Shown here in pieces: positions 7,501-53,320 of a stretch of DNA of 64,000 nt. Location: contig MU004189.1 in assembly GCA_010093605.1 (NCBI GenBank), forward strand, positions 441,834 to 505,833. The letters are read 5' to 3'. Position 1 is the stretch's first letter; the number at the start of each line of letters is the position of its first letter. Made by a program: the position numbers and the translations under genes. The notes beneath the pieces were generated by a model. That model saw only the letters and a program-made list of their open reading frames with translations, searched no databases and was not told where the DNA came from. The DNA is from Lophium mytilinum (lineage: Eukaryota > Ascomycota > Dothideomycetes > Mytilinidiales > Mytilinidiaceae).

Positions 7501-10500
7501 CTGTCGCCTGAAGATCTTGGAGGAGCGCCTCGATACCAATCATGTCATCCTTCATCGCAGATCCAGACGCCGGCTGAGCCTCAGGAACGACGGTTGGCGC
7601 TGGTGTATTCTGAATATTTGCGTCCATCGCCTCAACCTTGATATTCAACTGAGCCAACATGACTTCCATCTTCTCCAAATCGTTGCGCTGAAGTGACTCC
7701 TGCGGTACATGCACAGGCGGCATGTCACGACTCATGGAACCGGGATCTTCGGCAAGCACAACCTCATTACCCCTCGGGGCTTCTTCATCAAAAGACTCTG
7801 CAGAAGACTCGGACCTGGTGTGTCCTTTGAGGCGGTCGATATCTTCACGAAGGCCGGCAAGACCATCCTTCAACGTGTCCAGAATCTCGTACGAAACGGT
7901 CATATCAACTGGCTTGTCGACCAACTTGACGACATCTGAGCGCAGACTGTCGAGACCATCATTTAACGCATCGAGGATTTCTCCAGTTGCGGACATATGG
8001 CGTTCTGGATTGTCCATCCTCTTCTCCAAATGCGAGCGTAGATCGTCGAGACCCAATCTTACTGCATCGAGAACCTCCTCTGTATCAGCCCTGGAACCGT
8101 GACGAGCCATACCGGTCGCAATCGATTGTCGGAGTTGTTCCAATTCGCCACGGAAAGCTTCAAGTAGCTCTTCATTGAGACCACTTGACTCGGATCGAGA
8201 TGCGTTGGCCCTCATTTCCTCAAGACCTGTCCTCAGAGTCTCCAGGATTTCCTCCTTCTCCACGGAATCGCCACTTCGGACGAGCGTAGACCCTAAGGTT
8301 TCCCGCAGATGTTGGACCTCTTCTTGAATTGCGGTTAGAGTTTCCTTGGAGGCGGTGTCCTGCTCAGATGCAAGCTGAGAGCGCAAGCCATCCATAGACT
8401 CTCGCACGGCATCAACAATATCATCTCTATCAGCTGAGCCTCCAGATTTGATTAGAGTGGTCGCCAGAGTCTCTCGAAGATGTTCGAACTCTTCCTTCAT
8501 CGAAGCAAGAATATCGTCGTTGGTGTTTACCGAAGAGTCGGACTGGCCGAGATTGGCATGGAGACCTTCGAGGCTGGCATGGAGGGCTTCAAGAATCTCG
8601 TCCTTGTGAGAGGCACTACCACCGAGTAAGACGTCCTTGAGTTGTTCGAATTCGTCCTTCATCGCTTCGTTAATGTCGTCATTGGTCTCTGGATCAAAGT
8701 CGCGAGTAGTGGTGACTTGAGAGCGCATGCTTTCAAATCCGGCGGTCAGGGCAGTCAGAATCTCCTCCTTGTCTTTGGCAGCCGGGAGGAATTGTGAAGT
8801 GAGCTCTTCGTGAAGATGCTCGAATTCTGACTTGATGTATCCAATCATGTCTCCGCGACTCAGAGCGTGATCACCACGAGGGCCTTCCGCGACGAAGCCT
8901 TGTACATCAGTACGCAGTCGCTCCAATTCGTCTCTCATGGTGTCCACAATTTCGTCTTTTCCGGTGACATCTTGGGCCTTGTCGACATAAGTCTCGATCT
9001 CTGCTCGTAGAGTTTCGAGGCCATCTCTGACCGCATCCAGAACTTGCTCTGTATCTCTTCCGTTGGCAGATGAGTAAGATTTGAACTCCTCTCGCATGTT
9101 GTTCACAACCTCCTTCAGGCTCGTCATGACCTGTTCGCCGTATCCTCCCATCGGAGTGCTGGAGCCTTCAAGGCCCGCCTTTACGGCATCAAACAGATCC
9201 TCACGGCTGATCTCAAGCTCACGAGGAGCGTTGAAGTCGTGATTCGCAAGAGTGTCTTTCACGGCGCCCGCGACGAGTTCTCTGGTGACTGCATGGTCGA
9301 AGGATGGCGGTTGAGCGTTCATGGCTGGCTTGAACTCCTCCAAGCATTCGCGGACAGCGCATAGGACTTCTTCCCGTATTTCGTGGGCCTCATTTGGTGG
9401 AGCTGGGAGAGTGAAGTTCTGGAAAGCTTCGTGAATGGTATCCATGACCTCTTCTCTACTGATGGCGTCTTGGTCTCTTGTAGAATTGGAGTTTCGATAA
9501 TCTTCGAGGCCTTCTTTGAGGCATTGGAGAATTTCATCTCGCTCCAACCCAAATTGCTGAAGCTCGATCTCAGGTTTGTATGCTTCGTAGGCTTCCCTGA
9601 CCGCAGAAAGAATAGCTTCTTTATCGAGAGAAGAATCTGCGGTTACTGGGGCGCGGTCTAGGCCGCGCTCCGCAAGAGCTTGCTTGACAACTTGGTACAC
9701 TTCCTGGCTATCGACCGAGTTTCGGGACATCATGGAAGAGTTTGATTGTCGTCGTTTCTCCCGGATAAGTCGATCCATTTGACCTCGAAGTTCGCCCAGG
9801 CCCTCTTGGACAATTCGTTCGAGGTCTGGTTTGTTCTGGACGTCGTCAATCGCAAGGTGGGATTCCCGCTCTTTGGCGTATTCGTCGATCTGGCGGGCAA
9901 TGTCTCTACCCATACCAAGAACCTCTCCTCGCATAGTCTTGAGGAAAGCTTTGGTTTCGGCAGTCATGCCACCTGTCTCAGCAACACTGTCCTTTATCTT
10001 CTTCAAGTACTTGAGCATTTCCTCGCTGACAAAATCGGCTGCTTTCGGGCTAGCATATGCTTTCTGGCTATCCGTACCGTTTGGCATTGGAAAGCTGGCA
10101 TTCATATCCCGGGTAGTACGAGCAAGCGGCCCGGTGCCTGGTGTGGGCTGGAAAGTTGTGTTCTGTCCATTGACTCCACCTCCATTTCCTCCTCCACGTG
10201 CCACCAGCGCTTGGCTCTGAGGTCCTGTCTTGATGAACTCGACCAGGTCGGTGACCTTCTTAGCGGTGTCGCCAGTGGCCTTGTCGACCAGGGTTGAGAG
10301 CGTTGCCAGAAGGCGTTCTTGGCCATCTTTGGTGACCATCTCGCGAATGATCTTTTCTAACATCGCTACACTGGCGGCTCCTTCGACAGAGTAAGGATTT
10401 GGGCTCCCTATTCTATCATCTCCCCACATGTTAGGAGAGGGAAATCGGGGCAGGACGAAGTTCTTTCCCGGTGGGGTGCTGTGTGAATCCTTCTTCTCTC

Positions 10501-11596
10501 CGAAGAGACCGCTGCTCGATCGACTGAAATCCAATGGAGCTCCAAGGAGACTACTTTGTTGAGGGTGACCAACGTTCGCAACGAGTTCTCGCAGACACTT
10601 GCGAATGTCTTCATCTCGAGAGTTTGTAGCCTCTTTGAGGCTGATCAAATCGCTAGCGTTGTCTTTACTCCGGCGACTCAACTGTGACATCTCCTTCTGG
10701 AGGTTGGAAGCTATAGAGGTAATGCTCAGAAGCTGACTTGAAATGGCATCGAATGTCTGGGGAGTCCTAGCTGTCGACGTATTTGCAGAATTGGCGGAAT
10801 TGGCGGAGTTTGTAGAGTTTGTAGAATTGGCGATATTTGGTAAAGGTTCGAGATGCTCCCGTGGTATGGTCATGGTTTGTAGTGCCAACATGGTGGCCGA
10901 AGGCGGAGTATTTTCACCCAGTATTGCCTTTGTAAGCGGTCGGCTGGATGCTCGCAGGGCCGGGGTATCTTTCAGCACATCTCGCCCAAGGGGTGTGGGC
11001 GTTCCAGATCGAGTGGGACTCTTGTCTGGAGACGTGGGGAATGGGTAGTCCCTGTCATGATCTCGTCCCATATTTGGTGTCGCTGATCTTGATGGGCGCT
11101 CGGGTGAGCGGTCTGGCGACCTCACACCATCGAGGAAGCTCCTCAGGTCTCGGACACTGGTAGTCTGTAGCGACTGCATGCGCTTGTGTTGGGCGGATTT
11201 GACTAGAGACCTATCTGGCGACTTTTCTGGCATACGGTTTGTAGTATATGAGCTTGCAGGCGCGCTCTCCCGTGCCTTTTCTTCAAGTGCCCTGGCAGCA
11301 GCAGCGATTCCTGCAGATACGTTGGGTCGAGTAGAGGCGCTGACAGGCGAACCTGGATTAAGAGGAAGCGGAGGCGGTGCGCGTTCTGGATCAGAGCTAT
11401 CCCACCTGCGACGTCGAAGACGACTGGTCAGTGGCATTGTTCAAGATCGAAAGGGAGGTTGTGGAGTGTTGACATGGGACAACATTGGAGGTGCTTACAT
11501 GGGGATGTGTGATCTGCCAGATTCGGAGGAGAAAGAATGCTGGTGCTTGAGCACCATATCGCGGTCGCGAGAGCTTTCCCTGTCGATGGAACTCAT
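4541..11596 (-). CDS. Giant repeat-containing coiled-coil protein (about 2320 aa)
   Basis: I propose two exons: 11596-11499 and 11405-4541, with a 93-base intron (GTAAGC donor, CGTCGCAG acceptor, CTGAC branch). The splice rebuilds an ATG-TGG junction, giving RSHIPMWDSSDPERAPPP. This start is preferred over the in-frame ATG at 11437, whose first residues come from intron sequence. The N-terminal ~550 residues are low-complexity, rich in Ser/Pro, with SP/TP sites. Residues ~600-1230 hold many imperfect 35-45-residue units of the form DEILDALRDGLESLR. Residues ~1260-1970 are long heptad coiled coil. The tail is basic, then strongly acidic. Related proteins in other moulds carry automatic names such as chromosome segregation ATPase, but no ATPase motif is visible. 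A structural or scaffold role is inferred only. Confidence 0.88.
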
Positions 11597-24695: not shown

Positions 24696-24763
24696 AGGGC
24701 ACGAGTATTTCCACACCCTCCTATTGTATATTAACACCCCCCAACTTTGGTAGATGCACACCC
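24696..24763 (+). repeat. Left terminal inverted repeat
   Basis: 68 bases from AGGGCACGAG to GCACACCC. It is the reverse complement of 25373-25440 with five mismatches, at positions 17, 30, 50, 51 and 62 of the repeat. Confidence 0.9.
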
Positions 24764-25372
24764 CTATCATCTAATCTTTCAATTGGCTAGAACGGCTCGG
24801 ACTTTCATTCGGAGCTCCAGTGGCCGGCCGCCTGGCTTAAAGGAGGGCATCATAGAACAGCAGCAGCACCACGGAAGGCAGTATAGCGGCCTGAGAGCGC
24901 CCATCCTAAGCCTCAGCCTTAGCCTTAGCTTGCTCCTTAGCCTTAGCCTTAGCTTGCTCCTCAGCCTTAGGCGGCGCCAGCGCGGCTTCCTTATAAGGAG
25001 CTCCAACGTCAGATAGCATTGTGCGAGGAGGATAGCCAGTGGGGTGCGGCGGCGATGTAGGGGGGGCCAGGTTTAATGCAGAGAGGCCGTAATAAGGTAA
25101 GGATCTAACTGTTTTAGCATGCTTATAGGTACGTAGGCACGTAGGTAGTAATACAACAGCCTATATACACTGTAGGAAACGGGAAGTATGCATAGTAAAA
25201 CGGGTATACTGCACAGCCTTACCATAACTACAGCCTTACGTACAGCCTTATGTACGGATTATATATATAGCCTCATCTACAGCCTTAATAGGCTGCTGGA
25301 AACGGTAAGAATGCGCGATGAAATGGCAGTGATCCGAGCCCTCCGGACCAATCAGAAGATCAGACGGGAGGA

Positions 25373-25440
25373 GGGTGTACATCTACCAATATTGGGGGGT
25401 GTTAATATACGATAGGAGGGTGTAGAAATACTCGTGCCCT
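25373..25440 (-). repeat. Right terminal inverted repeat
   Basis: Inverted partner of 24696-24763, ending CTCGTGCCCT and followed directly by the TCTAAT flank copy. Confidence 0.9.
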
Positions 25441-25892: not shown

Positions 25893-26745
25893 ATGTCTGA
25901 GTAAGTCACTATCCTCACTTCATTGCACTAAGTCTAATTGCACTCCCAGCCTTACAGATCCCGCCGTCCCGCCTACGGACGGTACCTGCCACTTCCTTCG
26001 TCTCCCCCAGGAACTTCGCGATGAAGTGTACGGCTATGCTATCACGAGTTCGGAGGACTATGTCGTCTGCGATAAAATCGCAAAGAAGCAGATCCTACGA
26101 TTTCCCGGGGCCAAACCCACTACCAATGCCACAGAGTCGACAATCGTAGTCAACCAGCTTCAATATGTCTCAAAGCAACTTCGCTCCGAAACCCTTGGCT
26201 TTTCGTTCAAGTTGAACAAGAAAGTTGTGATTGTGTCTGAGGATCATAAACGCAAGGGCCCTACTCAAGAAGACCTCGTAGACCTCGAAGACCTCGAAGA
26301 CCATCAGACTGGCGTGCTGCAGCACTCTCTCGACTTTCTCCTCGCGTGCACCCCGACTTCGCTCTCCAAACTCACTACTGTCGTCATCCAGATGGAAGGC
26401 GTAAGTCGTGCTCCTCATGGCGGAATCCTGACTTGGCCTCTGATCAACGGGCCACTCAACGCCTTCTGCATCGCCAATCGACACATTTCCGTCAAGATTG
26501 AATTGTTGGACTGGAAATCGAACTGGGATGCTCAATTCTATGTGCAGGGACGAACCTTGACATTCTTCGCCGATACAGCTCGCGCTAGCATTCCAGATGT
26601 CGCGTCCAATCTGCGATTTGTGCCTGCTGGAAGCTTAGATATCGAAAAGTTGGAAGAAGTCCGTGCTAGGGCGGCCCCGATACAACCTCCGCACTGGCAG
26701 GTGTCACTATCAAATAAGATGGAGAAATGGTTCGAGGGGATCTAG
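25893..26745 (+). CDS. Array paralogue A, unknown function (267 aa)
   Basis: Exon 1 is only 8 bases (25893-25900, ATGTCTGA). A 49-base intron (GTAAGT donor, CTCCCAG acceptor) leads to exon 2, 25950-26745. The start MSDLTDPAVPPTDGTC lines up with the paralogues, whereas an unspliced start at 25738 gives an unrelated N terminus. Shared blocks are CHFLRLPQELRDEVYGYA, NQLQYVSKQLRSETLGF, the FLLACTPTSLSKLTT stretch, NLRFVPAGSLD and the C-terminal KWFEGI. The first block recalls the short F-box-like/2EXR motif of many fungal proteins (LPxELRxxIY). No catalytic site, signal peptide or membrane helix is visible. This is the first of eight paralogues, and the copy nearest the transposon-like element. 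Confidence 0.82.
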
Positions 26746-27257
26746 TGGATGGAAGTGGCTGCATTCGGAGCTAGCCCATGGTTAGTTGTTCAGGGGATGA
26801 CTAAATAAGCTTAGCGGGTCGAGCAAGGGCAAGTCTAGTCGAGTTCTCTTAGAAGAGTTCGTGCACTGATCGAACTTCACTTCGAAGTGTGTGTGCTTTC
26901 TTTCAATCATCGTGTATACCTCCATACATTTTCAAGGCCCTGAACAAGGTGAAAAGTCATGGTTTTGACCCATTGGTACACCTACTGGCGAGATCAAGTC
27001 AGTGGGCCCTTAATTAGATTTATGAGCTTAAGAGGGTGATTCCTATAGTGCTATACTGCCAATGTCTTCGCGAGTCGAGCGGGAGAGGGTTTGACAGATC
27101 TGAGGGTAAGTGAATGTTTCTACTAACCACGTGTTTGCTCTTGATAGACTCCGCTGCCACATATAAAAAACGCTTCCTCGATGTGAGGAACTTCACAACA
27201 TCACCCGCTTCCAGTCTTCCACACCCACCAATTGACGGTCTAGTGCCAACCAATGTT
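26746..27257. other. Intergenic region between array genes A and B
   Basis: No gene is seen. A TATAAAA at 27162-27168 lies 96 bases before the proposed start of the next gene and is a plausible TATA element. Confidence 0.5.
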
Positions 27258-28326
27258 ATGGCGCCGACACCTGACTTGCCTGAGTATGTCCCTTTCCCCT
27301 TCGTGGCTTAATTATGCCAACTCTGACTCCTTCATAGCTGTGCAGTCACTAAGAAGGCAGAAATTGCCAAGGGCCGAAATTCGATGTGCCTCCATCAGTA
27401 TGTGCCCTTTCCGAAAGCTGCATCAAGTCTCGCCTAAACATTTTCTTCGTGTCTAACTAGATAAAAGCGACTCCAGTAATCCAATCATCCCACCGGCAGG
27501 GACATGCCCCTTCCTGCGCATTCCCCAAGAACTGCGAGATCTGGTTTATGACCACGCCCTCACGAACCCCAGCGACCATTTGATCTGCACTACATACGTT
27601 ATCCCCACACACGAGGCGTCCCGAATAATCACGCGTCTCCATCACTCCATCTTCGATATCGAGGACATCAATCAGCTCCAATACGTTTCAAGACAGCTGC
27701 ACGCTGAAACCTCGGGTCTGGTTTCCAGGCTTATCAGATGCATTGAGTTCAGGCCAGAGATGTACGGGGTCGACCCCACCTTGGGACTGAAATCACTGGT
27801 CAGATTCGTTGATTCGGCAGAGGTCGCATACGCGCGAGCCCTCATCTTCCTTCGAGCCTGCAAGCACTCTACTATCGCCAACCTCAATACCGTTTTGTTT
27901 CCGCTCGGGGGTAGGTGGTATGTCAATGTCACGCAAACTCGTCAGGACTCCCCGCTTCACGGTTTATGCTCTGCCTATCCGCACATATCCTTCAAGCTTC
28001 AGTTCGAGCATTGGTGGTTTCAACATGCGGAGGGAACATTGTCCTTCCTGAGATCAGGAGTCCGGCTCGAGGGCGGCCACTACGGATATGCACTCACCTT
28101 CTCGTCCAACTTGTCGTTGATGCCTAACCTATCCTATTGCGATGAGAGCGTTCTCTGGGAGGGCATCGTGGAGCTAGGGCTTGAGGAAGACTTGAGCCAG
28201 GCGACGTTCCGTCATGCAAAGAGATGGCTTACGGAGGGTATCAAAGGAGGAAGGCAACGGCTGACGGAGATTTTACGGATTTCCTCTTCCGCTGCAAGTG
28301 GTGGTCTCTTGCTAGAACTTGCGTAG
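27258..28326 (+). CDS. Array paralogue B, unknown function (about 314 aa)
   Basis: The preferred model has exons 27258-27283, 27338-27397 and 27468-28326, with introns of 54 and 70 bases that both start GTATGT. The last acceptor is the non-consensus AAAAG. A shorter model starts at ATG 27384 inside the second exon and gives 290 residues. The body matches the family: IIPPAGTCPFLRIPQELRD, NQLQYVSRQLHAETSGL, a central AxIFLRACKHST block, CSAYPHISFKLQFEHW, and KRWLTEGIKGG. It is the most diverged N-terminal region of the array, so the exact start is uncertain. Function is unknown. It runs in the same direction as its neighbours, with about 500 bases before it and 1 kb after. Confidence 0.75.
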
Positions 28327-29309
28327 GGCTGCAAATACTGGGGCAGCGTACAAATCTCGAGGCGGCTGAACCTCAGCCGGCTATTGGAGACTCTTGGTGG
28401 ATCGGCTGCATTGCAGAACACCCGCTCTCCTCACTGGTTTCGAGCCGCCAAGAAAGTATCCATCTAGTGCTACATTCAGGCATCCGAACTTGTGGCTAGT
28501 ACAATGACGAGCGGAGAAATATCTGATAAGAGCCCTAGGATAGCTAGGTGTGGTTTAGGTAATGAGCTTCCATATTCTCTTACGATTTCCATCTTCCCTA
28601 AACACTTGCCCGGAGACTTCTCAAGTAGGCTTCCCATCTCGGGACAAGCCGATCAGTACTAACGACCTGGCTACAACTTGCAAGTTGCGGTGTGCGTTGT
28701 CTTATCACACGATAACTACTTACACCTTTGTAATGCTGTTCGTCGTGCTACAATGTGCTTTTGTCATTTCATAGCGACTGTGTACACCTCCTTGCGATTG
28801 TCTAAGGTGCCCTAGCGAGCTTCCTGATTGTTCAAGACAAACAATTTCATATCGTCCGCATCTTCGGAAATAGCTTGAAGGACCACAAGCAGCGGCAACA
28901 CACAGCAGCTAAGGGCAATCCAGCACGTGAGTGTCCTCTGAGCGGTCACATAAAACTAATTGCGTCCATGCAATAACTGCAGCTCAGCTCGACCTCAAAG
29001 TTCGGCAGTCAGTGTTAAGATATCAGTCATAATCGATGTCACGGACATGCTTTCGGGTTTATGTAAGATCATTGCCCCGAGCCATTTGTACGATTGCGGG
29101 TCACGCAACTTGCGTAGCTTTTTTCGCACTCCACGCGATTTCCTTTGCCTTCAGTTGTGAGGGATTTGGACAGTTGCCCAGCTTCACTTCACCTTCGCCT
29201 CACCTTCACTTTATGGATTCTATCTCTCTTATAATGTCCTTTTCCTTACTTCCAACGCTCTTCTTTACAACAACCCAGACCTGGGTCTCGGAACCAGGTT
29301 GTGCCCATC
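28327..29309. other. Intergenic region between array genes B and C
   Basis: About 980 bases without a frame resembling the family. I looked for a decayed copy with the NQLQYVSKQLRAET block and found none. It may include the promoter of gene C. Confidence 0.5.
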
Positions 29310-30143
29310 ATGGCATCGTACGTCTCCATCCAGATCCATATATTGCTCCTTAGTTTGGCTAATTCATAAAGCAGCGTCACCGACCCCTCGATTCCTTCAA
29401 GTGACGGCACCTGTCACTACCTCGGCCTGTCTCAAGAACTCCGATATGAGATATATCGATATGTCCTCACCGGTGATGAGGAGTTCATCACCTATGAAAT
29501 GCTCAAGGAAATCAACCAACTCCAATACGTTTCCAAGCAACTTCGGGCAGAGACCGTTGGCCTGACTCTCAAGTTCAACAAGTGTGTCAAGTTTTGGTCA
29601 GCCCACGACATCATCAAATGGAATCGCACCAGCAATCATAGCTGTTTGGTGGGCGTTACACAGGCGGTCAACTTCCTATGGGCGTGCTCTCCAGCCTCCG
29701 CGAGAAAGTTGGCTACCGTGCTGATCGAGGTGCCTTCTCCAAGAACCCACTCAGTCTACAAACTTCCCCTCGCCGACATTTCTGGGCCACTATCGAGCAT
29801 CTGCCGTTCCCGCACCCACAATCATACCTTGGTAAAGATTCGTATCGCCAGCTGGGATTTCAAGGATGTCGCCAAGATTCGAACGTTCATTCGCACTGGG
29901 AAGTTTTTGGAGGGCAAATGGGTTGCCAAATCGCCAGGAGTGTCATCCAACGTGCGGTTTGTACCATTGGGAAGCTCTTTCGATGAGACACTGTTCTCTG
30001 AAGGTATCTCAGCACAGCTAGGGCTCGCATCTAATACCGCCATCGCAACAACGTTGGGCAGGGCAAAAAAGTGGTATGCCGAGGGAATTTCGGGAGGTGA
30101 CAGGTTTCCAAAGTGCCCCTTCGTATTGTCTATGGTGGTCTAG
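29310..30143 (+). CDS. Array paralogue C, unknown function (258 aa)
   Basis: Exon 1 is 8 bases (29310-29317, ATGGCATC), then a 57-base intron (GTACGT donor, GCAG acceptor), then exon 2, 29375-30143. The N terminus reads MASVTDPSIPSSDGTCHYLG. An alternative acceptor three bases upstream would add one serine. Family blocks are LSQELRYEIYRYVLT, NQLQYVSKQLRAETVGLTL, KFNKCVKF, LWACSPASARKLAT, NVRFVPLGSS and AKKWYAEGISGG. The middle block is closest to paralogue F. The protein appears soluble. Function is unknown. Confidence in the gene is high because splice site, frame and C-terminal block all agree with its paralogues. Confidence 0.85.
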
Positions 30144-30586
30144 CAAGCTTTCTGGTTGTTCAAAAAGATGAATTCTTATCTCGTTTATCTCCTCAAAAGC
30201 AGCTTGAGGCACCACTCGAAGCGGTAAAGGGAGATACGCAAACCTACGATCTCCTCCTTGCGAGGCAGAGAAGCTGTTACTCGTCAGGTTACTTCACCTC
30301 GCTGTAGGAGCTTGGCATTGGTTAGTCCGCAAGTGGCTTGCATAAGGCCAACCGGGCCTATTGGACGGCTCTGCTGGGACCACTTCCGCAATATGTGATA
30401 TATGATATATCAACTCCGCCTCATTTTCACTATCCAATGATACATAGCAAATTTTTAGTGACACACGGCAAGTATCGTCTTGCGTTTAGGCAGCGCGCTC
30501 CCTTCACTATAAAGCGACCTTCCCTCGTTCAGATCCTTACTCCGTATGTCATCAGCTTCAAAGTCTTTTCCAGCCACAATCACAGC
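30144..30586. other. Promoter region of array gene D
   Basis: A TATAAAG at 30508-30514 lies 79 bases before the ATG of gene D. An open frame continues upstream in frame to 30338 but does not resemble the family. Confidence 0.5.
30508..30514 (+). promoter_or_regulatory. TATA-like element of array gene D
   Basis: TATAAAG, 79 bases before the ATG. A matching element at a similar distance occurs before gene E. Confidence 0.45.
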
Positions 30587-31417
30587 ATGGATCCATCCAG
30601 CCCTCCGAAAGACGGCACTTGCCACTTCTTCCGCCCTGCCCAAGAGATCCGGGACATGATATACGAATACGCCCTCACAAGTCCCGACGGCCGTATCATC
30701 TGCAACGAGTACATTGCCTTTGACGACGATGCCCATCAACCTTTCACGCGCCTCGAGTTCCCTCGGAGCAATTGTACAGAGGTTAATCAACTTCGACACG
30801 TCTGCAAGCGATTGTGCGAGGAGACTACTGGTCTTACCCTGAAATTCAACAAACACGTCGAATTCTTTGACAAAACCTTCTTGGTTTCCGAGTATCAGGA
30901 ACCCGAATCCTACTTCAGCGACTGCTCGAATTCAGCCGTTGATAAATGCATCACCTTCTTGAGCGCCTGTACGCCCAAGTCTCGGGCGAAGCTCCATTCT
31001 ATTGTCATCGAGATCCCACACGCTGATGACGCTCCGTATGCCGAAATTGCCACCACACTCAACGACCTCTGCTTCATGGTTCTGCATCTCTCGATCAAGG
31101 TGATCATCGGCGACTGGTATTTCGACCAGGCTAGCGAGGTTCACGACTTTCTGAGGATTGGCTACCTCCTAGAGTCGAAACGACAGGCATACGAGCTTGG
31201 TTCAGCTCCCAATCTAAAGCTTGTCCCGTGCGAGGAGGTTTTCGATGAGGCTATGTTCACGCAAGGCCTCGCAAGGCGCTGGCGTCCCTTCAATGTCAAG
31301 CAATCATTCCCACGAGACACAATTAGGTGGTTGGCGGAGGGTATCGTGGTGCGCGAGGAGAGCTTGGTGGATCCTTTCTTCATCAGGATCGAGCTGCCAA
31401 TTCTACAGCGTCGTTGA
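30587..31417 (+). CDS. Array paralogue D, intronless, unknown function (276 aa)
   Basis: A single exon starts MDPSSPPKDGTCHFFR, at the same distance before the DGTC block as in the spliced paralogues. No donor is needed, so this copy seems to lack the first intron. Blocks are PAQEIRDMIYEYALTS, NQLRHVCKRLCEETTGLTL, KFNKHVEF, FLSACTPKSRAKLHS, LSIKVIIGDWYF, NLKLVPCEEVFDEA and TIRWLAEGI. The second block is more diverged (RHVCKRLCEE instead of QYVSKQLRAE). The TATA-like sequence 79 bases upstream supports this start. Loss of the first intron could come from recombination with a cDNA or from a new start codon, but sequence alone does not decide. Function is unknown. Confidence 0.84.
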   Translation: MDPSSPPKDGTCHFFRPAQEIRDMIYEYALTSPDGRIICNEYIAFDDDAHQPFTRLEFPRSNCTEVNQLRHVCKRLCEETTGLTLKFNKHVEFFDKTFLVSEYQEPESYFSDCSNSAVDKCITFLSACTPKSRAKLHSIVIEIPHADDAPYAEIATTLNDLCFMVLHLSIKVIIGDWYFDQASEVHDFLRIGYLLESKRQAYELGSAPNLKLVPCEEVFDEAMFTQGLARRWRPFNVKQSFPRDTIRWLAEGIVVREESLVDPFFIRIELPILQRR

Positions 31418-31955
31418 ACGATGAACGAGGCTATGGCTTGCCACTGTCAAGGGTGCCTCGGCATACTCCGAGAAGTCAGAACCTCATTACTTTGTATAAT
31501 CGGCGAAGTCATTAGGCCACCTCAGACAGCGGTAGGCGGGGGATCAAAAACTATATCTGACGATACGCTGCTACAGATTCAAATGAGTGACTTGAGGAAA
31601 CTTGATGTACATTCAAATGAGTGACTTGAGGAAACTTGATGTACATTCAAGTGCGACTGTCTGGGGTCCCCCTGGGTTTTAGGAAACTATGACGTGATGT
31701 TATATTGGAGGCAGTGGGTTCCCAGCTAATGTATGAAAGCCATTCTATATCAACTTTGAAACCAACCGGGAGAAAGAGCATGGAACCGGATTGGAATCTA
31801 TTGATGGGGCTAACTTGGTAAGTCTTATATATCTCGACCTTGAAATCATCCCAGAGGCACCATACCCCGAGTATGAGCCCCTATTGCTGCCTAAGACCTG
31901 TAGAGAAGCCTTCTGGTACCTCCCGCAACCCAAGTGCTGGCCGATGGTAGACATT
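31418..31955. other. Convergent gap between array genes D and E
   Basis: No gene is seen. It contains a short tandem duplication (see 31577-31644) and the 3' flanks of two convergent genes. Confidence 0.5.
31577..31644. repeat. Perfect 34-bp tandem duplication
   Basis: The unit ATTCAAATGAGTGACTTGAG plus 14 more bases occurs at 31577-31610 and again identically at 31611-31644, followed by a partial third copy (ATTCAA). Its perfect identity points to a recent slippage event. Confidence 0.9.
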
Positions 31956-32774
31956 TCACAAAATCGAGGGCAGCTGCTCCAAACCCGGACACCAAGCCAT
32001 TTCCACTTCGGACATTCCCTCGGAGAACCACGTTCTCACCCGAGGCAGCCACCTCTCAATTCCAGCAGTATCAAAGATACCTAGATAGTCCCGCTCGGCC
32101 AATAATCGTTGAGCAAGTACACCTTCATCGAACTTTCCGGTGGGTAGCACCCGCAAGTTGGGAAAGCGTAACCGAAAACAATGGTGCTTAGCGTATTTGC
32201 CCTCTAATATGAACCGAGTGACACTCTTGCCATACGTCAATTTCCAGGCTTCCGACCGGAGCTTGACCATAACGTGTATGTGGGTGGAGCACCACCTACG
32301 AAGTGGACCGGTGATAGAGTCCCACTGCGTGCACTTATTTGATATTTGGCTGTATCCTGATTGAAGGTCAATCTGGATGGTGGCGAGTTTCGAGGTAGAG
32401 ACTGTCGTGCAAGTAGTCAGGAAGCTGAGACGCTGATCCAGATACACGTCGATGTCGCATGGTTTCATCCTCAGGATGTCCTTGTCGCATGTAATGTGAA
32501 CCTGTTTGTTCAGTTTGAGGGTCAACCCGAGGGTTTCGGCGCGTAATTGCTTGGAGACGTATTGCAGCTGGTTGAACCCATCGAGTTGGTCGTCGTAGAG
32601 GAAGTCTTCGTCGCTGGTGAGAGCATATTCATAGACTTCGTCGCGGAGTTCCCGCGGAAGACCCAGCAAATAACAGCTCCCATCAACTGGGGGTATGGAA
32701 GGGTCGGTGCTGTTAGAGGAGTTAGTCAGATGAGGTAGTATTACGTTTCTCTAAAGGACGACTTACGAAGACAT
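31956..32774 (-). CDS. Array paralogue E, unknown function (253 aa)
   Basis: This is the only array member on the minus strand. Exon 1 is 8 bases (32774-32767, ATGTCTTC), then a 57-base intron (GTAAGT donor, AACAG acceptor), then exon 2, 32709-31956. The product begins MSSTDPSIPPVDGSCYLLG. Blocks are LPRELRDEVYEYALTS, NQLQYVSKQLRAETLGLTL, KLNKQVHI, FLTTCTTVSTSKLAT, HVMVKLRSEAWKL, NLRVLPTGKFD and RTWFSEGMSE. A minus-strand TATAAAG (32862-32856) lies about 82 bases before the ATG. It shares a 287-base divergent promoter with paralogue F, which has an identical exon 1 (ATGTCTTC). Inversion of one copy in the array is the simplest reading. Function is unknown. Confidence 0.85.
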
Positions 32775-32855
32775 GGAGATTTTGGGGCAGTGAGTGTGTG
32801 TGTGTATGTCGGTGTGGTTTGATGCAACCACAGGCTGGCAAGTAGATACGAGGGC

Positions 32856-32862
32856 CTTTATA
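32856..32862 (-). promoter_or_regulatory. TATA-like element of array gene E
   Basis: TATAAAG on the minus strand about 82 bases before the ATG, matching the placement before gene D. Confidence 0.45.
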
Positions 32863-33061
32863 GTATGGAAACAAGGTAAAGATTTCTTAGGGAACTATTT
32901 TGGCTCAATTCACCGGCATTGCCGCTCATTTCCACTACTCCAAGTTGGTCCGTAGGAACCACCTCACTTCCACAACAGAACCTGCTATCCACTGGGACTC
33001 TCTCTACACAACACGCATTTCACCAGAACACACAACACTTTGGAATCTTCAATCACTTGCC

Positions 33062-33922
33062 ATGTCTTCGTAAGGCCCCTTATATCCGCAAAATCCCAGC
33101 TCATCCATCTAACCGTGAGGATACAGCATCATCAATCCCTACAACCCGGCGGACGGCGTATGCCATTTCCTTCGCCTTCCCCGAGAGCTCCGAGACATGG
33201 TCTACGAATTTGCGATCACCAGCGAATCGGAGTCTGTCACATTCGTGGACGGTAAGATCGGATACATCGACCTATACAGTCAAACCCGAAGCGTCAACGA
33301 GCTACAATACGTCTCTAAGCAACTGCGTGCTGAGACTATTGGTCTCACTCTGAAGTTCAACAAGTGCGTCCGCTTCAACGAGAACGATTCCTTCAAAGAG
33401 CTCGATATCGAGCAAGCGGTCGAAACATCAAAGAGTGTGACCGAATGCCTCAAGTTCCTCAAGGCGTGCACACCGACCTCGATCTCGAAGCTCGCAACAA
33501 TCTTGATCGAGATGCCTGAACCCCACATTAGTGCAGTTCTAACCTACTTGCGCTCGTGGAGAAATATAGTTAGCGAGCTTTCCAAGTTCTGTATCGCGAA
33601 CCCGCACGCCTTGGTCAAGATCTCTGTCACCAAGTGGTACCTCGACGAAAGCGCAACACACGGTCCCTTAGATACATCTTGGTTCTACGAGACTAATTAT
33701 AAGGTCAAACGCACTGCTGCTTGGGGAAGGCTCGGATCTGCGTCCAACTTGCGAGTGTTCCCTTTTGGTAGCCTGCCCGATCAAGGCTTGCTGTCTCATA
33801 GTGTGCCTCTGACTAGTGTGCCTCTAAGGTGGCTTGCCGAGATAAAGAAGGTGTATGCAGACGGGATCTCAAGTGGAGATTTTGATCCAGCAGGCTGGAT
33901 AGCTCTGGCGGACGATCAGTAG
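33062..33922 (+). CDS. Array paralogue F, unknown function (267 aa)
   Basis: Exon 1 is 8 bases (33062-33069, ATGTCTTC), then a 57-base intron (GTAAGG donor, TACAG acceptor), then exon 2, 33127-33922. The product begins MSSIINPYNPADGVCHFLR. Blocks are LPRELRDMVYEFAITS, NELQYVSKQLRAETIGLTL, KFNKCVRF, FLKACTPTSISKLAT, IANPHALVKISVTKWYL, NLRVFPFGSLPDQG and KKVYADGISSG. Length equals paralogue A. The intron length and exon 1 sequence equal those of paralogue E across the divergent promoter. No targeting signal is seen. Function is unknown. Confidence 0.86.
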
Positions 33923-34282
33923 TCCAAAGAGGTGCCTGGGGGGTGATGGTACAGCAGACGGAGCGGTATTGGATCTTTCTTTTTATATCGGATGGTTCTG
34001 GGAGAGCTTCAGCGAGTAGTTGCATATAAGCTGAAGTCTAAATATTAGACCCCCTACCTGAATTCGCCTTCTCTTACCAGTGTAATCAGCCTACTGTCGT
34101 GTCCCTCTGAGCCTCGTCATGTGACCCATACCATAACAGTTTCCCAAAGATTCACCACGACGGACCTTGCGACACTATTTCGGATTATCAAAACCCCCCT
34201 CCTAACTCCTAACTTCCAGCTCTAACAACTCTCTACGTACACGCATACACTCAACCACCCCACCCAAACCCAACAGCAACCA
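33923..34282. other. Intergenic region between array genes F and G
   Basis: 360 bases with C-rich, A-rich sequence just before 34283, like a fungal leader. No gene is seen. Confidence 0.5.
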
Positions 34283-34918
34283 ATGCCTCCATTAGGTACT
34301 CCAATAACCACCATGGACCAGGATGATTCGTAAGAACCCATTTCAACCTGCTTTGCTCTTCGTCTAACAACTTTTGATAGTGTTGCCAATCCCTCAATCC
34401 CGCCGGCGGATGGGACATGCGTCTTCCTACGTCTGCCCCAGGAGCTCCGCGACATGGTGTATAAATACGCCATCACCTCTCCGACCGGCCGTGTGCTTTG
34501 CTGCCAGTACGCCAACAAGCAAGTCCTCAAGATATCACAACCAGACGACCTGGCCCGGCCTATAGTCAAAGCGAACCAGCTGCAATATGTTTCCAAGCAA
34601 TTGCGCGCAGAAACGGTCGGTCTGACGTTGAAGTTCAACACGGAGGTTCTGTTCAAGGGAAATAGGACGACGAACAGTGATAGATACGAGCACTTCGACG
34701 AGCAGCTTCGTACCTTCCACTGTGGGTTCGGTCAAAGGTTCGACCGCGCAAACAGGCAGTGTCTTCGCTTCCTCGGAGACTGCAGCGAAGCTAGCCTGCA
34801 AAAGCTGAGGACTATCGTCCTCGACTTCGCCGGAGATGCCCTCCCATACGAAGATCCTGTTTCCCGCTTCTGTTCCGATTATCCACACATCTCTGTTAAG
34901 ATCCGTGTGATTGAATAG
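34283..34918 (+). CDS. Array paralogue G, C-terminally truncated (194 aa)
   Basis: Exon 1 (34283-34329, or from an in-frame ATG at 34313) is joined to exon 2 (34381-34918) across a 51-base intron with a GTAAGA donor and a GATAG acceptor. The product includes MDQDDSVANPSIPPADGTC, LPQELRDMVYKYAITS, NQLQYVSKQLRAETVGLTL, KFNTEVLF, a C-rich variant of the middle block and YPHISVKIRVIE, where a TAG ends the frame. Full-length paralogues continue about 70-75 residues beyond this point, through the NLRxxPxGS and WYxEGI blocks. I could not recognise those blocks in any frame downstream. The copy is therefore truncated and may be a pseudogene or a short variant. Its remaining frame is intact. Confidence 0.7.
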
Positions 34919-35668
34919 GATTAGACAGGTGGCCAGATCGCTGGGATCACGTTCCCTAATTCACAGAGAGAAGCGAATGAGGCGAGGCAAGTCTATCCAG
35001 GAGGGTGTTCGGGCGGCAGAGTGGGTGGACGGCCGATGGAATTGGCCGGGAAAGTATCCTTAGAACGAGGGCTGAGGAGCTGGCAGGTGTTGATATTAGC
35101 ATTCTGGGAATATTCCAAGGCTAAGATTTCGAGGGATGAGTATCAAGTAATGTAAACAAAAAGTCCTACTCGAATCTGGGGAACTAATATGTGCTTGGCT
35201 AAAGCCTGCGTAAAATCGCCTACGTAATATCGCCTGCCACAGCTTGAACTGGCTCAAAGCATTCTTAGGGCATCATGAAGGAGACTCTTGACAATCCTGA
35301 TATCTGGCCGGGCGGCCCTTGTGGTGGGGAGGATAATCGTAAATATATTGAGCGTGTATCCTGGCTGTCTAGAGCTTAAGCTCATAGCAAGGCGCGGTAG
35401 AATGTATAGGATTTGATCGATTACCTTCTCCTTTGAGAGTATGCGAGCCTGAGGTCTTGATTGCATCAGCACGATCCCTTCACCAAATCATTCACCGCAA
35501 GGTGAACTTACCTGCTCCTAGACACTCACAGCTTCACCTAGCCCGTCATCATAAACAACTCCTTCCTCTTCCAACACTTTCTCCTACACTCCAGCCTCCC
35601 CATTACTCCACTCTCAGACCACAAAACCACCCGCGCACCTCGATCCTAGTAGTACCACTCTACACACC
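34919..35668. other. Intergenic region between array genes G and H
   Basis: No gene is seen. The last ~150 bases are C-rich with CTCC and CACC runs, fitting the leader of gene H. The lost C-terminal third of gene G was not recognised here. Confidence 0.5.
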
Positions 35669-36726
35669 ATGCCTTCGTAAGTTTTCCCTTGATTCGCATC
35701 CGCTCAAAGCGCACCATCTGACCAACCCCTCACAGCACTTCTAACCTCGCCCACGATCCCTCTATTCCACAGGTAGGCGTATGCCATTTCCTGCGCCTAC
35801 CACAAGAACTCCGCGACATCATCTACGAATACGCCATCACCGAGCCCAACAACCGCGTCATATGCTGCCAACAAGGGAACCGCCAAGTGCTCGCAATCTC
35901 TTCACCAAGCCCCATCGCCGCCAACCCGAGCCTAAGCGAAGCAAATCAGCTTCAATTCGTCTCCAAGCAACTCCGCGCCGAGACTCTCGACCTAACGCTC
36001 AAGTTCAACCCGACGGTGGCCTTCCTAGGCATTGTGGAAGAGCGTGGCGACTCTTCCGCATACGGCCAATGCAACCACTTCCTGATGAACTGCAACAACT
36101 TCCTGATGAACTGCGCTCGTGCCATTCTAGCCAAACTGTCTTGTATCGAACTCGAGCTCAGCGGAAATATCTCATACCTCCCAATTGGGTCCATCCAGTC
36201 TTTGGCTAGCAAACTCTATCACATGAATCCTCAAGCTTCCATGGTCGTCCGCCTGGTCCATTGGAATATCATGAGCGACGAGTTCATCTGGTATTTTAGC
36301 GAGTACGGCGAGTATCTCATATACGCGTGTCAGTTTGTTCGATTTGAGAATGTGCCGAATCTGAGGTTCAGGCCGGCCGGGGATCTGGATAGGAAGCGGC
36401 TGAGGCGGAAATTGCTCAGGGAGATGCGGGACTATTTCCCAAGTGGGGAGAGAGAGAAGATGCTGGAGGAGGCAAAGCGGTGGTATAAAGACGGGCTTCC
36501 GAGAACTTCCAAAGCTGGAGAAGGTGTCGGTGGTCAGGATGACGTCGAGGACGATGAGGACGAACACCCTGAGGATGACGAGGACGAGTTTGTCTTTGAT
36601 GAGGGAGATCTCCAATGTCTCTTCGATTACGAGGAGGAATCAGAGTATCCTTCTGATACCGAGGTTCTTGAAGACGGCGAAGGTGGCGAGGATGAAGAGG
36701 AGCTTGATGGAGAAACAGACGACTAA
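35669..36726 (+). CDS. Array paralogue H with acidic tail, unknown function (332 aa)
   Basis: Exon 1 is 8 bases (35669-35676, ATGCCTTC), then a 59-base intron (GTAAGT donor, CACAG acceptor), then exon 2, 35736-36726. The product begins MPSTSNLAHDPSIPQVGVC. Blocks are LPQELRDIIYEYAIT, NQLQFVSKQLRAETLDLTL, KFNPTVAF, NLRFRPAGDLD and KRWYKDGLPRT. A short duplication inside the gene repeats a CNHFLMN / CNNFLMN unit (about 36070-36114). After the last shared block comes an extra tail of about 65 residues, almost half of it Asp and Glu, including DDVEDDEDEHPEDDEDEF. No other array member has this tail. Such tails can bind basic partners, but the function here is unknown. Confidence 0.86.
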
Positions 36727-47401: not shown

Positions 47402-50400
47402 CTACAGCTCGGTTTTAGGGCCCAGGAGCCGCTGCCGCTTTGCATCCCGAGTATTTTCAATATGCGCCTCGATGGTGCCTTGCTTCCGGTAGATAATTGA
47501 AGGCAGATTCGGTGTCTGGTGGTCGTAAACACTGTATGTGCTCTGCGCAGATTTGTTCCATATTACGCGAACCCACTTGTCGTTCTCCGTGCTTGGCAGC
47601 AAGGAGACGTGAGTTTCCTCGCCCTGGCGTAGTCGAGGCAAATGAGCCAGCAGGTGCGAGCTGGTCATGACGGCACTGCTACCTATAATCTGTTGAGTCG
47701 TTGTTTGAGTGTTAACTAGTGTCGATTTGGAACCAGTGGTTTGGATTTGTCTTTCTTCGGAATCTGCATCGGAACCCCATCGAGTGCCAGGACTCCAGTC
47801 CGCTATTTTAGAGAGGTAGTTCAATGGTAGACGCGCGGTTTGGTGTGGGCTTATTATATCAATCAAAGAGTCGGAGTCCCATTGATTGGCAGCCCAGTAT
47901 AAGGACAGGCAAGCTGACACATGCGAGATTTTCCAACGTAGGAAAATCAACGCGTGCTCAAGGTACGGATCTTTGGTTTTGGTGCTTGAATTTGAAGATG
48001 GATCCGGACTCTGGTCGTCCATGTTTGGTTCGACCCAATTGCAATACAGTTTAGTTCCACCCTGGGTGAAACACAAGGAGGTAGCAGACCGCTTGAGTAT
48101 AGCGACCCTGCTTTTAGGTCCTGCAAGGAAAGTTAGTCGATTTCAACGTTCTAGCAAAAGTCCCAATACCAAGCTTACCGGCGTCTGTGTACAACCAAGC
48201 TACTACCGTATTCCACATGCTGTAGACTAATAAAGGCAGTTGAGGATGGAAAACAAATTGATTTCCTGAAGCCTCTTCCCGCCATGAAAGTCTACTGGTT
48301 TTAATCTCTCCCCTGCAGTGGTAAGAGGGCCATTGACCTTCAACATGGACCTCGCTCCACACTTGAACCGTTCTGCAATCAATGGCACCTGATTGCATGC
48401 TCCCGGAAACCAGGCCCAGAGCTCTCCCATCTGGAGAGAAGACGGAGTAAGTTGACATATCTTGCTTCTTTTTAGTGCCCTGGTCGGAAGTTTCTTCTAT
48501 GTCAAGAGATTGGAGGCTGTATTGAATCCTCATTGTTCCAGGCACGCGGCGAATGATGATAACGGAGTGTAGAACGAGAAGTCGATCCAGATCGTGACTG
48601 ATGGCAACTGGAAACGCGAAACGGTGGGGAGTCTTCGAAGATATGCACTGCTGCAGCATCCCAAATACTTGGCGGTCTGGAAGATCTACGTCGATGTCCA
48701 TGAGCAGCGTTTCGTCCTTGGTATTCCTCCGTTGATACCGAACTTTCCATCCGGAGCTGCAGGTCTTGGCCAGACCGATTCTTTCATCATCAGAAACGAG
48801 TGAAGGATTTCGATTAGAGCTCCGGACAGCTGGTTGAACGAAGAAAAGGTCTACTGCGTCAATGTACTTTCTGAACGACCTTAGCACTATCCAGACTACA
48901 TACTAGCATCGAAACTTACTGTGAGGGCAAGACAAGAACTATTCCCAGTTCCTGACCGCAACTCGAAACTTGAGATTGAACTAAGATCGGTCGCTGAGGA
49001 CTGCATCTATGGTATGAGCCAATCGCTTCCGTTGGTAGCATCGACGACACCGTAGTATTCTTTGTCTCGTACCAGAACGAAGACTTAGAGAATGCGGTAA
49101 TGCTGGACCCCCAGATTGCTGATGGGTCTTGTGTCAACACGTGGCCCCATTCATCGTCAAGGCGCTCCAGGTCCATAGCAAGCTCCTCAAGCAAGGATAA
49201 AATCTGATTTCCAATCCCACTCGGCAAGATAGGTGCGAGATCTGAAGGTTTCTTCAGGCCAAGGTTGACCAATAGCTTCAAAGATGGGATCATTTGAAAT
49301 ATCCTTGATGCCTCAATCCAGACGGTCACGGTGAGGGGTCGCCTGACAAGTGTTGATATCAAACTAGAGAAGTCGTTCTCGGCGTTATCCTGAAGTGGCA
49401 TATCGTGAGACTGAAATCCAAGAGCTGCATGTTTTACCCATTGGAGTGCATACTCAATAAAAGGAAAGAGGGCTTTCAGAGCCGCAATAGTTGGAAGGGA
49501 ACTAGTCTGGCGAAGCGGACTCGACGGCAGGTCATAGAGAAGGTACGAAAGACAAATCGAGGAGCATCGGACATGGGCAGCGCGCTCATGGAGACTAAAC
49601 CCGCTACTGTGGGCGAGCCCAGAGGTGGCGGTCAAAAAGTCGCGGAAGGATGAGTGTATGAACCGCACAGTCTTGTCGGTCTGCACTTCTACTAAAGCTC
49701 TACAGATAATGGGGAGGGACTCTTCAAACTCAGCTATCAGATTTGAAGTCTCCGTGACTTTTCCGGGAGCGACCGCAATTGCAACCTGTAGTTCGGTGAG
49801 GAGAAGGGGGCGGGAAGCGATGGCGACGAGCTCGAAGATTTTCCGAACGCTTGCTCTTTCTTCCGCATAGCCTTTGTCGAGGACTCGAAGGATCTTGCCG
49901 TAGACATCATGCAGGCCTTCAACATCAGCGGCTTCGAATATGGCGGCGATACGTTCTTTTGGCGAAAGGGCTCTGCAATTGAGGTATTGGGCCATAAGCC
50001 ATGCCCATAGAAACATGCCTTCAGCTCGAAGAGCTAGCGCATCCACCGCTTTCCCGACTGAAGTTCCAATCGGGATCAGTCTGCGATCTTGTAAGCGGAG
50101 CATTTGTGGCTCGAGGTAAGTTTTGATGTCCTGGAGGTTCGAATATCGCTCAAGATACAGTGAAACGTGGAGGAATCGTATAGGTAAGTCCACGTTTGGC
50201 CGACCTAAGAGCAGAACACGCGTGGAAGTCGTCGCGCAAAGTCTTTGAATGAGATCGAGAAAGGTGCTATCTTGGTCGCATTCATCAAGTCCGTCGAAAA
50301 CAAGGGTGGTGTGCTTTAGAACTTCTAGCAGAAGGGATAGGGCGGCGAATATCTCTTCGTTGGACGCTTTCGGTTCACTACTATCGTTATCTTCCATGAG

Positions 50401-52773
50401 GACCGCACATCGATCAACTACATCCTTTTCTCCACGAAATCGGTGAAGGAGCTGATGGACAATAGCTCGAAAAGCGTTGTATGGTCCGCAGTAGTCCCGT
50501 CGCTCTGAAGCAAAGTGGTAATAGCAAATTGAGCCATAGCGCGGAGATACATGAGTAAAGGAGTTTGAGACCTCTTCGAGATCCTCGATGAGCAAAGACG
50601 ATAATACCGTCTTGCCGTACCCCGGCTTTCCTGGAGTCATTGTTAGGATTACGCGATGCGAGGCAAGGTCATCTTACCCTTGATGAAAAGGACAGGCGGA
50701 ACTTCCGAAGTGACTATATCTAAGCCTAGCCCATACTTTGTTGATGTTTCGGATTTCCAACTTTTATAAACAGGATCATTTAAGATGTAGTCTCCGGTAT
50801 CCGGCATCCGAATCATCTGGGCCTTTTCAAATTCTCGTTTGTACTCTGGGGGGTCGATCCAGCTCTTAATGTCACTCATCTTCGAACCTGCAGGAGTTAG
50901 AGACAACGAAGGGACGTTTATGACCACGCGTACTTATCGCTTCTACTTCAGTCTGCTCCATTTCTTCGCTGGTGGGATGCTTGGATATCTGTTGCCACCA
51001 GTTTTCTTCACTTGTGTCAAATTGAGCCGAAAGTCGGGACTCTAGCTGATCATTTGAAAGACGCAGATCCTCAACTTCCTGTCGGATTTGCTGAAAAGCC
51101 TGCCCCTCCAACAGCGGCTGTTGTAACCGCTTCTCATTTTTACTCTGGAATAGCGTCAACCCCTCCAGTAGAACCTCGGCCCTGAACGAGGCTTGATGAT
51201 ACTGCACCCGCTTCAGGAGAGCGGAGAACCTTGCGTCGAACGGCTGCCAGGATGAATTGGGAATGAAGCGAGACCTTGCATGAGTATCTGTTCAGAGTAA
51301 GCCACTTTTTCTTAAATGAACGAAGTGAAGCAATGACACAGTACCGCTATTTGTATCCAATATTCTGCAAGATTCAGAGAAGAATTGCATAATATCTGCG
51401 TACACGTATGAGAGCCCTTTGTAGACTCGGCGGTAGCGAACCTCGGTATGGAGGGCCAACTCAGTGTCCAATGTAGTCGCTCTTTTATTTGTAAAAGCGT
51501 TCAGGTACTCCTTATACGACGGCAAAGACTCTCGAATTCTCGAAATCATGCACACAATTTTGTCCAGATAGACTCTATGTTTCATTCCCAGCTTTAGAAC
51601 GTGAGATTTAGTATCGTTTGGTGATCTTGGGCTGGCAAGGATGCTTACTAGAAATACCAGACGAATAGCGCCCCAAGCCAGAGCCGTCCATTCAGGGCGA
51701 GTGGGTTCGAAAATCGTCACTATCTCAAAAAAAGGCTCCCAAGCAGCAGTAAATAGCTCAACCTTTCGCTGTAGACTGGAGAGCTTGCGGTGATTGGGGA
51801 CGACCGTGCATTTTGCTTGTAAGTCTCTTAACATCTCGAAAGAGGTATTGAACTCTTGAAACTGCTCCATTCCGTTTCTGTCCAGCGTATCACGAAATGT
51901 CGCAATGACTTGGTAGAAAATCTCGTCGGCTTCGTGCAGCCTAAAAACCGATGATTCGTTTCCAAAAGCTCCAGTATTCGCGAATGTCGTTTCAGTGTGG
52001 GCCTTGCTCTCTTCTCCGGAGCTGGGTTGTAGTGTAGGCCAACGTTCGGTCAGAGACGTTTGTATTTCTCTTCGAAGTCGATTGAACGCCTTTGTGCGTC
52101 CTTCACCGTAGATGAGGGGCATGTGAATGTCGAAAATGCCGAGTAAGGAGTATGCGGAGTCTTCTTCGCGTTTTGTCTCGCGTCTCGCTGCCCATGACAA
52201 ACGTTCGTCAATGCTAAATTGAGACAAAGGTCGTCCTTGGAGCGCTTCCGTACTGATCCCTGTGATCTCGTGGATTTCCTGCACCATCGAATCTTTAATG
52301 CCAATACTCGCCCCTTCAGCGGAAAAGAACTCCAGTTTTGCTGGAGCAACAAGTTCCTGCAATGTCCAGCCACGAGTAAACCACCTACTGTGCCGCCATG
52401 CTGATTTCCAATCGGCAGAGCCACTGTTCGAAACGTCGGATAAGAAGACGAAGCACTTTGCCGCATCGCGGTACCAACGAAACATAGAGTTAATAGACTC
52501 TGTGAGGTCGGAACTGCTTAATTTGTCGATACAGCAGGTGTCCACCCAGGAAAATGGGAGGCCGTTCTTCGCCGCCTCCGATGTACAGAATCTGATCTTT
52601 TCATACCCAGCTTTGGTTTTGCCTCGATCCGGACTCTCCGTCAAATCTTTCAGAGTGACTTCTTGGTCATCAGACCCCCAGGTGTGCGACAGGATCGCAT
52701 ACCGTGGAATATTGCTGCCGACGAACTCGACAAGGCTGAGTTCGCCGTCATCTCCGACCTTCAACAAACGCAT
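47402..52773 (-). CDS. HET-NACHT NOD-like receptor (about 1707 aa)
   Basis: Six exons: 52773-51345, 51287-50934, 50887-50678, 50630-48920, 48879-48179 and 48120-47402. Introns are 57, 46, 47, 40 and 58 bases. A start at 52806 is possible, but MRLLKV at 52773 is the usual HET beginning. Residues ~1-250 are a HET domain (YAILSHTWG, SWVDTCCID, RGWTLQELVAP). Residues ~270-590 are helical; WTALAWGAIRLVFLVS resembles the DUF7708 region found before fungal NACHT domains. The NACHT NTPase follows, with Walker A GKPGYGKT near 665 and Walker B LVFDGLDECD near 775. The C-terminal ~450 residues have beta-rich, WD-like pieces (FSPDGRALGLVSG, VQVWSE). Such proteins control heterokaryon incompatibility and non-self recognition and can trigger cell death. 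The 40-base fourth intron is the weakest junction. Confidence 0.87.
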
Positions 52774-53320
52774 GCGGATAGAAGAGAGCTGCGGGCCAGA
52801 GTGCAAGTATAGTGTGCCTAAGTAGGCTCCGAAGGAGGTCTATGTAGTATTAGTGGTTGGCAGACCCATTAAAGAGTTGTGAGGAGAATCTAGCTGGGGA
52901 GGTGACGCCGGGCACATCGAGTGAGGCTGAACATTTGCCTGCAGCCTGCCCTGCCACTCCATACCTAGACACCGCCACCACCTCGTGCATGCGATAGGCT
53001 CATGCAACACTTACACTCTTTTGATAAAAATGTAAATTAATTGAATAGAATTTCGAAAGCGAGCTAGCTGTTTTAGTAGCATAGTGTATTTAGTATCGAT
53101 GGGAACAAAGTTACATATTTGTCCTCAATGTAGCTCAAGCTGGCAAGGCTTATAATACTATGTAAGACCCTTATACGGGCGCAAATTGCGATGTTGAAAC
53201 AGTAAAATCACGCCAGAGTCATTGAAAATCACTCAATTGGAAGCTCAAATGCAGATACAAATCTGCTGCCGGTTCCAAGAAATCAGTAGACTTTGCGTTA
53301 GCCGTGGACTAGCCAGACAG
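52774..53320. other. NLR promoter region, AT-rich
   Basis: About 550 bases between the NLR start and the end of the repeat-protein gene, both on the minus strand. Around 53020-53060 it is AT-rich. No gene is seen. Confidence 0.5.

Follow-up and report, generated by a model that had tools for sequence, protein, structure and literature searches.

Three described protein groups stand closest to the locus considered here. F-box proteins bind Skp1 at the proline of their LPxE core, and their genes form large, tandemly duplicated families. The 2EXR family (PF20150) was built from one DPCfam cluster, and its source suggests that the two ExR motifs might matter functionally (PMC9621593). The curated cut-off of 2EXR is 24.8 bits, and that of DUF7730 (PF24864) is 27 bits. 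In this work, we analyzed a 64,000-nucleotide stretch of the Lophium mytilinum genome (contig MU004189.1, positions 441,834 to 505,833 of the forward strand; hereafter the window), in which eight homologous open frames (A-H) form an array at positions 25893-36726, from the ATG of A to the final base of the stop codon of H. The array is a compact branch of a known fungal family of unproven function. It lies about 0.47 Mb into a 1.995-Mb contig and thus away from the contig ends.

The initial annotation had placed eight paralogous genes here, seven on the plus strand and one inverted, and this was borne out. All 28 pairs of A-H matched in BLASTP with 27-43% identity, the expectation values (E) ranging from 6e-17 (B-H) to 6e-49 (C-E). 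Chance likeness of a few frames was therefore rejected, and the case which the annotation itself had set against its claim, namely that only two or three of the frames are related, did not occur. Repeat finding at the DNA level recovered the second conserved motif (SKQLRAET) in seven copies and also, as an inverted match, in E, which lies on the minus strand between D and F. The gene models were drawn from sequence signals, not transcripts, and their coordinates include the stop codon:

25893-26745, plus strand: paralogue A; exon 1 25893-25900, intron 25901-25949, exon 2 25950-26742, stop TAG; 267 residues
27258-28326, plus strand: paralogue B; exon 1 27258-27283, intron 27284-27476 (193 nt), exon 2 27477-28323; 291 residues
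29310-30143, plus strand: paralogue C; exon 1 29310-29317, intron 29318-29374, exon 2 29375-30140; 258 residues
30437-31417, plus strand: paralogue D; homologous part 30587-31414; three options for the start
32774-31956, minus strand: paralogue E; exon 1 32774-32767, intron 32766-32710, exon 2 32709-31959; 253 residues
33062-33922, plus strand: paralogue F; exon 1 33062-33069, intron 33070-33126, exon 2 33127-33919; 267 residues
34313-34918, plus strand: paralogue G, truncated; exon 1 34313-34329, intron 34330-34380, exon 2 34381-34915; 184 residues
35669-36726, plus strand: paralogue H; exon 1 35669-35676, intron 35677-35735, exon 2 35736-36723; 332 residues

Exon 1, including the ATG, comprises 8, 26, 8, 8, 8, 17, and 8 bases in A, B, C, E, F, G, and H, respectively, and the following intron 49, 193, 57, 57, 57, 51, and 59 bases. 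Such short GT-AG introns, together with a HET-domain frame in the window, fit a filamentous ascomycete. Seven of the eight copies (all but D) have this intron in phase 2 and inside their first 3-9 codons, and because its place and phase are the same, at least these seven derive from one gene. The model of B is the least certain, since its intron was placed by splice signals and the common phase 2. Paralogue D could start at ATG 30587 (276 residues), directly behind a possible acceptor, or at the in-frame ATG 30437, which gives 326 residues unspliced or 312 residues with a 42-nt phase-2 intron (30544-30585). With this upstream ATG, the open frame behind it and the possible intron found, the idea that D had lost its first coding exon was dropped.

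The relationship of the array to 2EXR was evident at its N-terminus. A Pfam match to the N-terminal 2EXR model at E<0.01 was obtained for four of the eight proteins, of which G scored 25.2 bits (the only one passing the cut-off), H 24.6, F 20.4, and A 18.3, and B, C, D, and E gave no 2EXR row at E<=1. As these single-protein scores straddle the cut-off, profiles were compared instead. In hhalign, the alignment of the eight array proteins matched that of 29 2EXR proteins dispersed over the same genome (those of the best 30 of 71 genome matches that lie outside the array) with a probability of 96.8% (E 2.4e-10). The match spans columns 19-144 of 281, or columns 19-142 when their own alignments were used. 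The matched region covers both motifs and the FLxxCTPxSxxKLxTI block. Furthermore, the array SKQLRAET has the form of CRQIRAEA (L036) and NKQIRAEA (L032) in dispersed members, and QxR in the second motif also occurs in the dispersed proteins L015, L023, L030, L032, L034, and L036. A simple pattern of the second motif picked out 16 of the 29 dispersed proteins and missed 13. Alignments were inspected for ten dispersed proteins, and in these the matches fall inside model positions 11-88, which is the N-terminal region. The N-terminal ~100 residues of the array proteins thus appear to be of 2EXR type, and the profile-profile match argues that the array is a branch of the 2EXR group.

This branch is a distinct one. 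With the array profile, its own full frames reach 247-350 bits, which is high by construction, and no dispersed protein exceeds 25 bits. For the part of the array proteins behind column 144, a search of the 29 dispersed members detected no counterpart. Likewise, six-frame searches of the 43.18-Mb genome (24 contigs) with F, G, and D as queries found nothing outside the array at E<=1e-3, the next-best matches of G beyond the array having E 0.014 and weaker. A scan for relatives in the non-fungal collections viral_contigs and genome_contigs gave 34 and 7 pattern matches, none of which was confirmed by tblastn. Five bacterial NCBIfam families each matched one of the eight proteins (best a BlaZ-type family, E 0.00027), and single members matched the Pfam families SBE2_C (0.012), CUB (0.05), Autoind_synth (0.078), and DUF2538 (0.16) below their cut-offs; these were taken as chance because no second array member has them. 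The annotation had also considered that the family might already be described with a known role. The N-terminal part does belong to a described family, and full-text literature searches by name and accession showed, among the papers listed, none that deals with what 2EXR or DUF7730 proteins do. Searches on F-box expansion and F-box-like arrays likewise gave nothing on the 2EXR family among the papers listed.

The conservation within the array is concentrated at the two motifs. Along the array alignment, mean pairwise identity reaches 0.56 and 0.64 for the first motif region and 0.53 and 0.61 for the second motif. It is 0.27 in the stretch between them and 0.14-0.43 behind the second motif, where nearly everything varies. 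The first ExR is invariant in all eight copies, and the second ExR position reads QxR in six copies, QxH in B, and RxC in D. The six ordered blocks that the annotation had ascribed to all eight proteins are not common to all of them: G, which ends just after PHxxVKI, is without the blocks W, NLRxxPxGS, and WYxEGI, and NPQASMVVR stands in H in place of PHxxVKI. Paralogue A stops at WFEGI, without the tail seen in other copies. The end of G falls right before alignment column 218, a tryptophan in the other seven, and a tblastn search downstream of G at E<=10 found no similarity to the C-terminal parts of the other copies; G is thus a shortened copy, with the last third missing. In H, a duplicated FLMNC stretch (36079-36114) and a long acidic C-terminal tail (36517-36723) were observed, both absent from the other copies. 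The 19-residue hydropathy maximum among the copies is 1.54 (in D; the N-termini are rough), which suggests no signal peptide or membrane span and agrees with the soluble, cytosolic type named in the annotation.

We hypothesize that the array encodes receptor-type proteins, multiplied by tandem duplication, in which a constant N-terminal module serves for docking and a variable C-terminal part for recognition, although we regard this as possible rather than probable. One gene would have been duplicated in tandem over and over to give the array, and its products would be soluble, modular intracellular receptors. The N-terminal module would dock one common partner (Skp1 or another), and the variable C-terminal part would bind differing ligands or clients, like F-box proteins in SCF ubiquitin ligases. 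This proposal is based on the conservation pattern and on the weak F-box similarity of the dispersed relatives; at E<=1, of the 29 dispersed 2EXR proteins, six matched F-box-like_2 (best 1.7e-5), two F-box-like, and one F-box.

Several observations weigh against such docking and recognition proteins. None of the eight array proteins matched a Pfam F-box model at E<=1, and the proline of the LP core is altered to serine in C (LS) and to alanine in D (PA). For these two reasons the array is not filed under F-box. The 2EXR type of the N-terminus, which the annotation had also named, agrees with the Pfam scores and the profile-profile match. A constant-plus-variable pattern is also expected from a structural core with a drifting remainder, and the cluster behind PF20150, according to its source, extends over a mostly unstructured AlphaFold prediction (PMC9621593). 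Our own AlphaFold models, with the eight array sequences as input, are weak (A: predicted local distance difference test, pLDDT, 58.2 and predicted template modeling score, pTM, 0.56; F: pLDDT 49.3 and pTM 0.50), with low confidence across most of the N-terminal module. The models of A and F have the same order of elements (helix, one or two strands, another helix, and then strands and helices in alternation), but their uncertainty is too great to settle the fold. A PDB sequence search gave no significant match for either the array profile (best E 0.69) or the dispersed 2EXR profile (best E 0.31). It appears fairly unlikely that 2EXR as a whole serves fungi as a docking module, highly expanded, of a degradation or signaling machine, with the array as locus-specific receptors whose C-terminal halves, for which no counterpart was detected elsewhere in this genome, diverged for different clients.

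The 2EXR group is abundant in this genome and is clustered elsewhere too. PF20150 gave 71 genome matches at E<=1 (44 marked over the cut-off by our own count, two in the array, G and H), and DUF7730 gave 132 at E<=0.1; these numbers overlap and count exon by exon, and 20 of the 29 dispersed 2EXR frames match DUF7730 at E<=1. Thirteen adjacent 2EXR pairs lie within 15 kb of each other, 12 outside the array and one inside, compared with a mean of 1.6 and a maximum of 7 in 2000 random placements of 69 loci, although in some cases two close loci may belong to a single gene. Therefore, the array is a large instance of a widespread tendency and not unique; it is ordinary in kind, a tandem expansion within a known family. 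At C1:10556-15998, in the first 16 kb of contig C1, apparently four two-exon DUF7730 genes (L039 and its neighbors) occupy 5.4 kb.

The 12 pairs outside the array also agree with a different explanation, in which the copies of an old 2EXR cluster are retained for dosage or come and go by drift, its proteins have no adaptor or recognition role, and 2EXR is a structural or other domain. The truncation of G and the restriction of weak F-box similarity to some dispersed relatives, with none in the array, point in the same direction, whereas the conservation of the motifs and a ratio of nonsynonymous to synonymous divergence (dN/dS) well under 1 over long times suggest retained functions, without proving differing ones. 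We consider this explanation quite conceivable, though short of probable.

The array copies are clearly diverged, as the annotation had claimed, and they are old, constrained duplicates. Besides the 27-43% protein identity, synonymous sites were saturated by the Nei-Gojobori method in 13 of the 28 pairs, and synonymous divergence (dS) was 1.24-4.29 in the other 15. In these 15 estimable pairs dN/dS was 0.15-0.46, none near 1, although such values are rough at this dS; they suggest constraint on the array proteins, either now or over a long past. The protein tree comes close to a star, with only G+H fairly supported (94/91), and the joining of B and D may be long-branch attraction, as the tool warned. 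Because of this saturation and the near-star tree, recent amplification was rejected, and the description of the family as fast-growing did not hold.

It could still be that part of the array is degenerating and that some copies are pseudogenes, which would be compatible with the other readings. The truncation of G, with no matching C-terminal sequence downstream, the start of D without the usual short first exon, and the end of A at WFEGI all agree with it. On the other hand, seven of the eight copies keep an open frame of 253-332 codons despite near synonymous saturation, and the frame of D is open from either start. Thus, we consider degeneration unlikely.

Two minus-strand frames 12-16 kb downstream of the array (48919-52839) brought up a role in fungal self/non-self recognition or antiviral defense alongside HET and NLR genes:

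51295-52839, minus strand: HET-domain frame, also with a DUF7708 match just under its cut-off
48919-50673, minus strand: NACHT-type NPHP3_N frame with a weak winged-helix match

The two frames possibly form one HET-NLR gene. However, HET matches are very many in the genome (at least 152), and the 2EXR/DUF7730 clusters are no nearer to them than circularly shifted controls. Of 97 merged clusters, 9, 17, and 26 have a HET match no farther than 10, 20, and 40 kb away, respectively, compared with means of 7.2, 13.8, and 25.7 for the shifted positions, which reached the observed count in 307, 210, and 516 of 1000 shifts. The inputs were 150 of the at least 152 HET positions, the HET frame of the window not being among them, together with all 71 2EXR rows and 62 of the 132 DUF7730 rows (second rows at the same place and the weakest rows were left out). 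Several contig sizes were lower bounds, taken as the largest coordinate seen. The test covered HET matches; the genome also has 70 NACHT-type matches. An association of 2EXR loci with HET loci was thus not found. As no estimable dN/dS is near 1 either, we hold a defense function of the array to be quite improbable.

Two further features of the window were observed. Just upstream of the array, a 745-bp element (24696-25440) has 68-base terminal inverted repeats that are 93% complementary and TTCTAATA on both flanks, an apparent 8-base target duplication. With 77 matching pieces across the genome, it looks like a non-autonomous DNA transposon. Capture of the array by a mobile element was rejected, since copies of the element occur genome-wide and nothing ties it to the array. 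A 2299-codon open frame without a Pfam match at E<=0.01 lies on the minus strand at 4544-11440.

Apart from its testability, the array is an ordinary tandem gene-family expansion. Eight copies at one locus offer a handy test of the role of the 2EXR family, a group so abundant here and for which the literature searches showed no paper on its role, because one deletion would remove all eight.

Compared with the known systems, the array resembles PF20150 in its N-terminal FLxLPxELRxxIYxxA helix and in a second helix of [CN][KR]Q[IL]RxE type. It differs from that family in that seven of the eight copies are under the cut-off, the second motif is QLR in six copies and not ExR, and no counterpart of the part behind column 144 was detected among the 29 dispersed members. 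The likeness to PF24864 is limited to weak matches of B, F, G, and H (E 0.0052-0.12), which involve the first motif only, and no copy reaches 27 bits (best G, 16.5). Like F-box proteins, the array proteins have an N-terminal first helix of LPxEL type and vary in their C-terminal part, but they differ in that none of the eight matches an F-box model at E<=1 and their LP core is not invariant.

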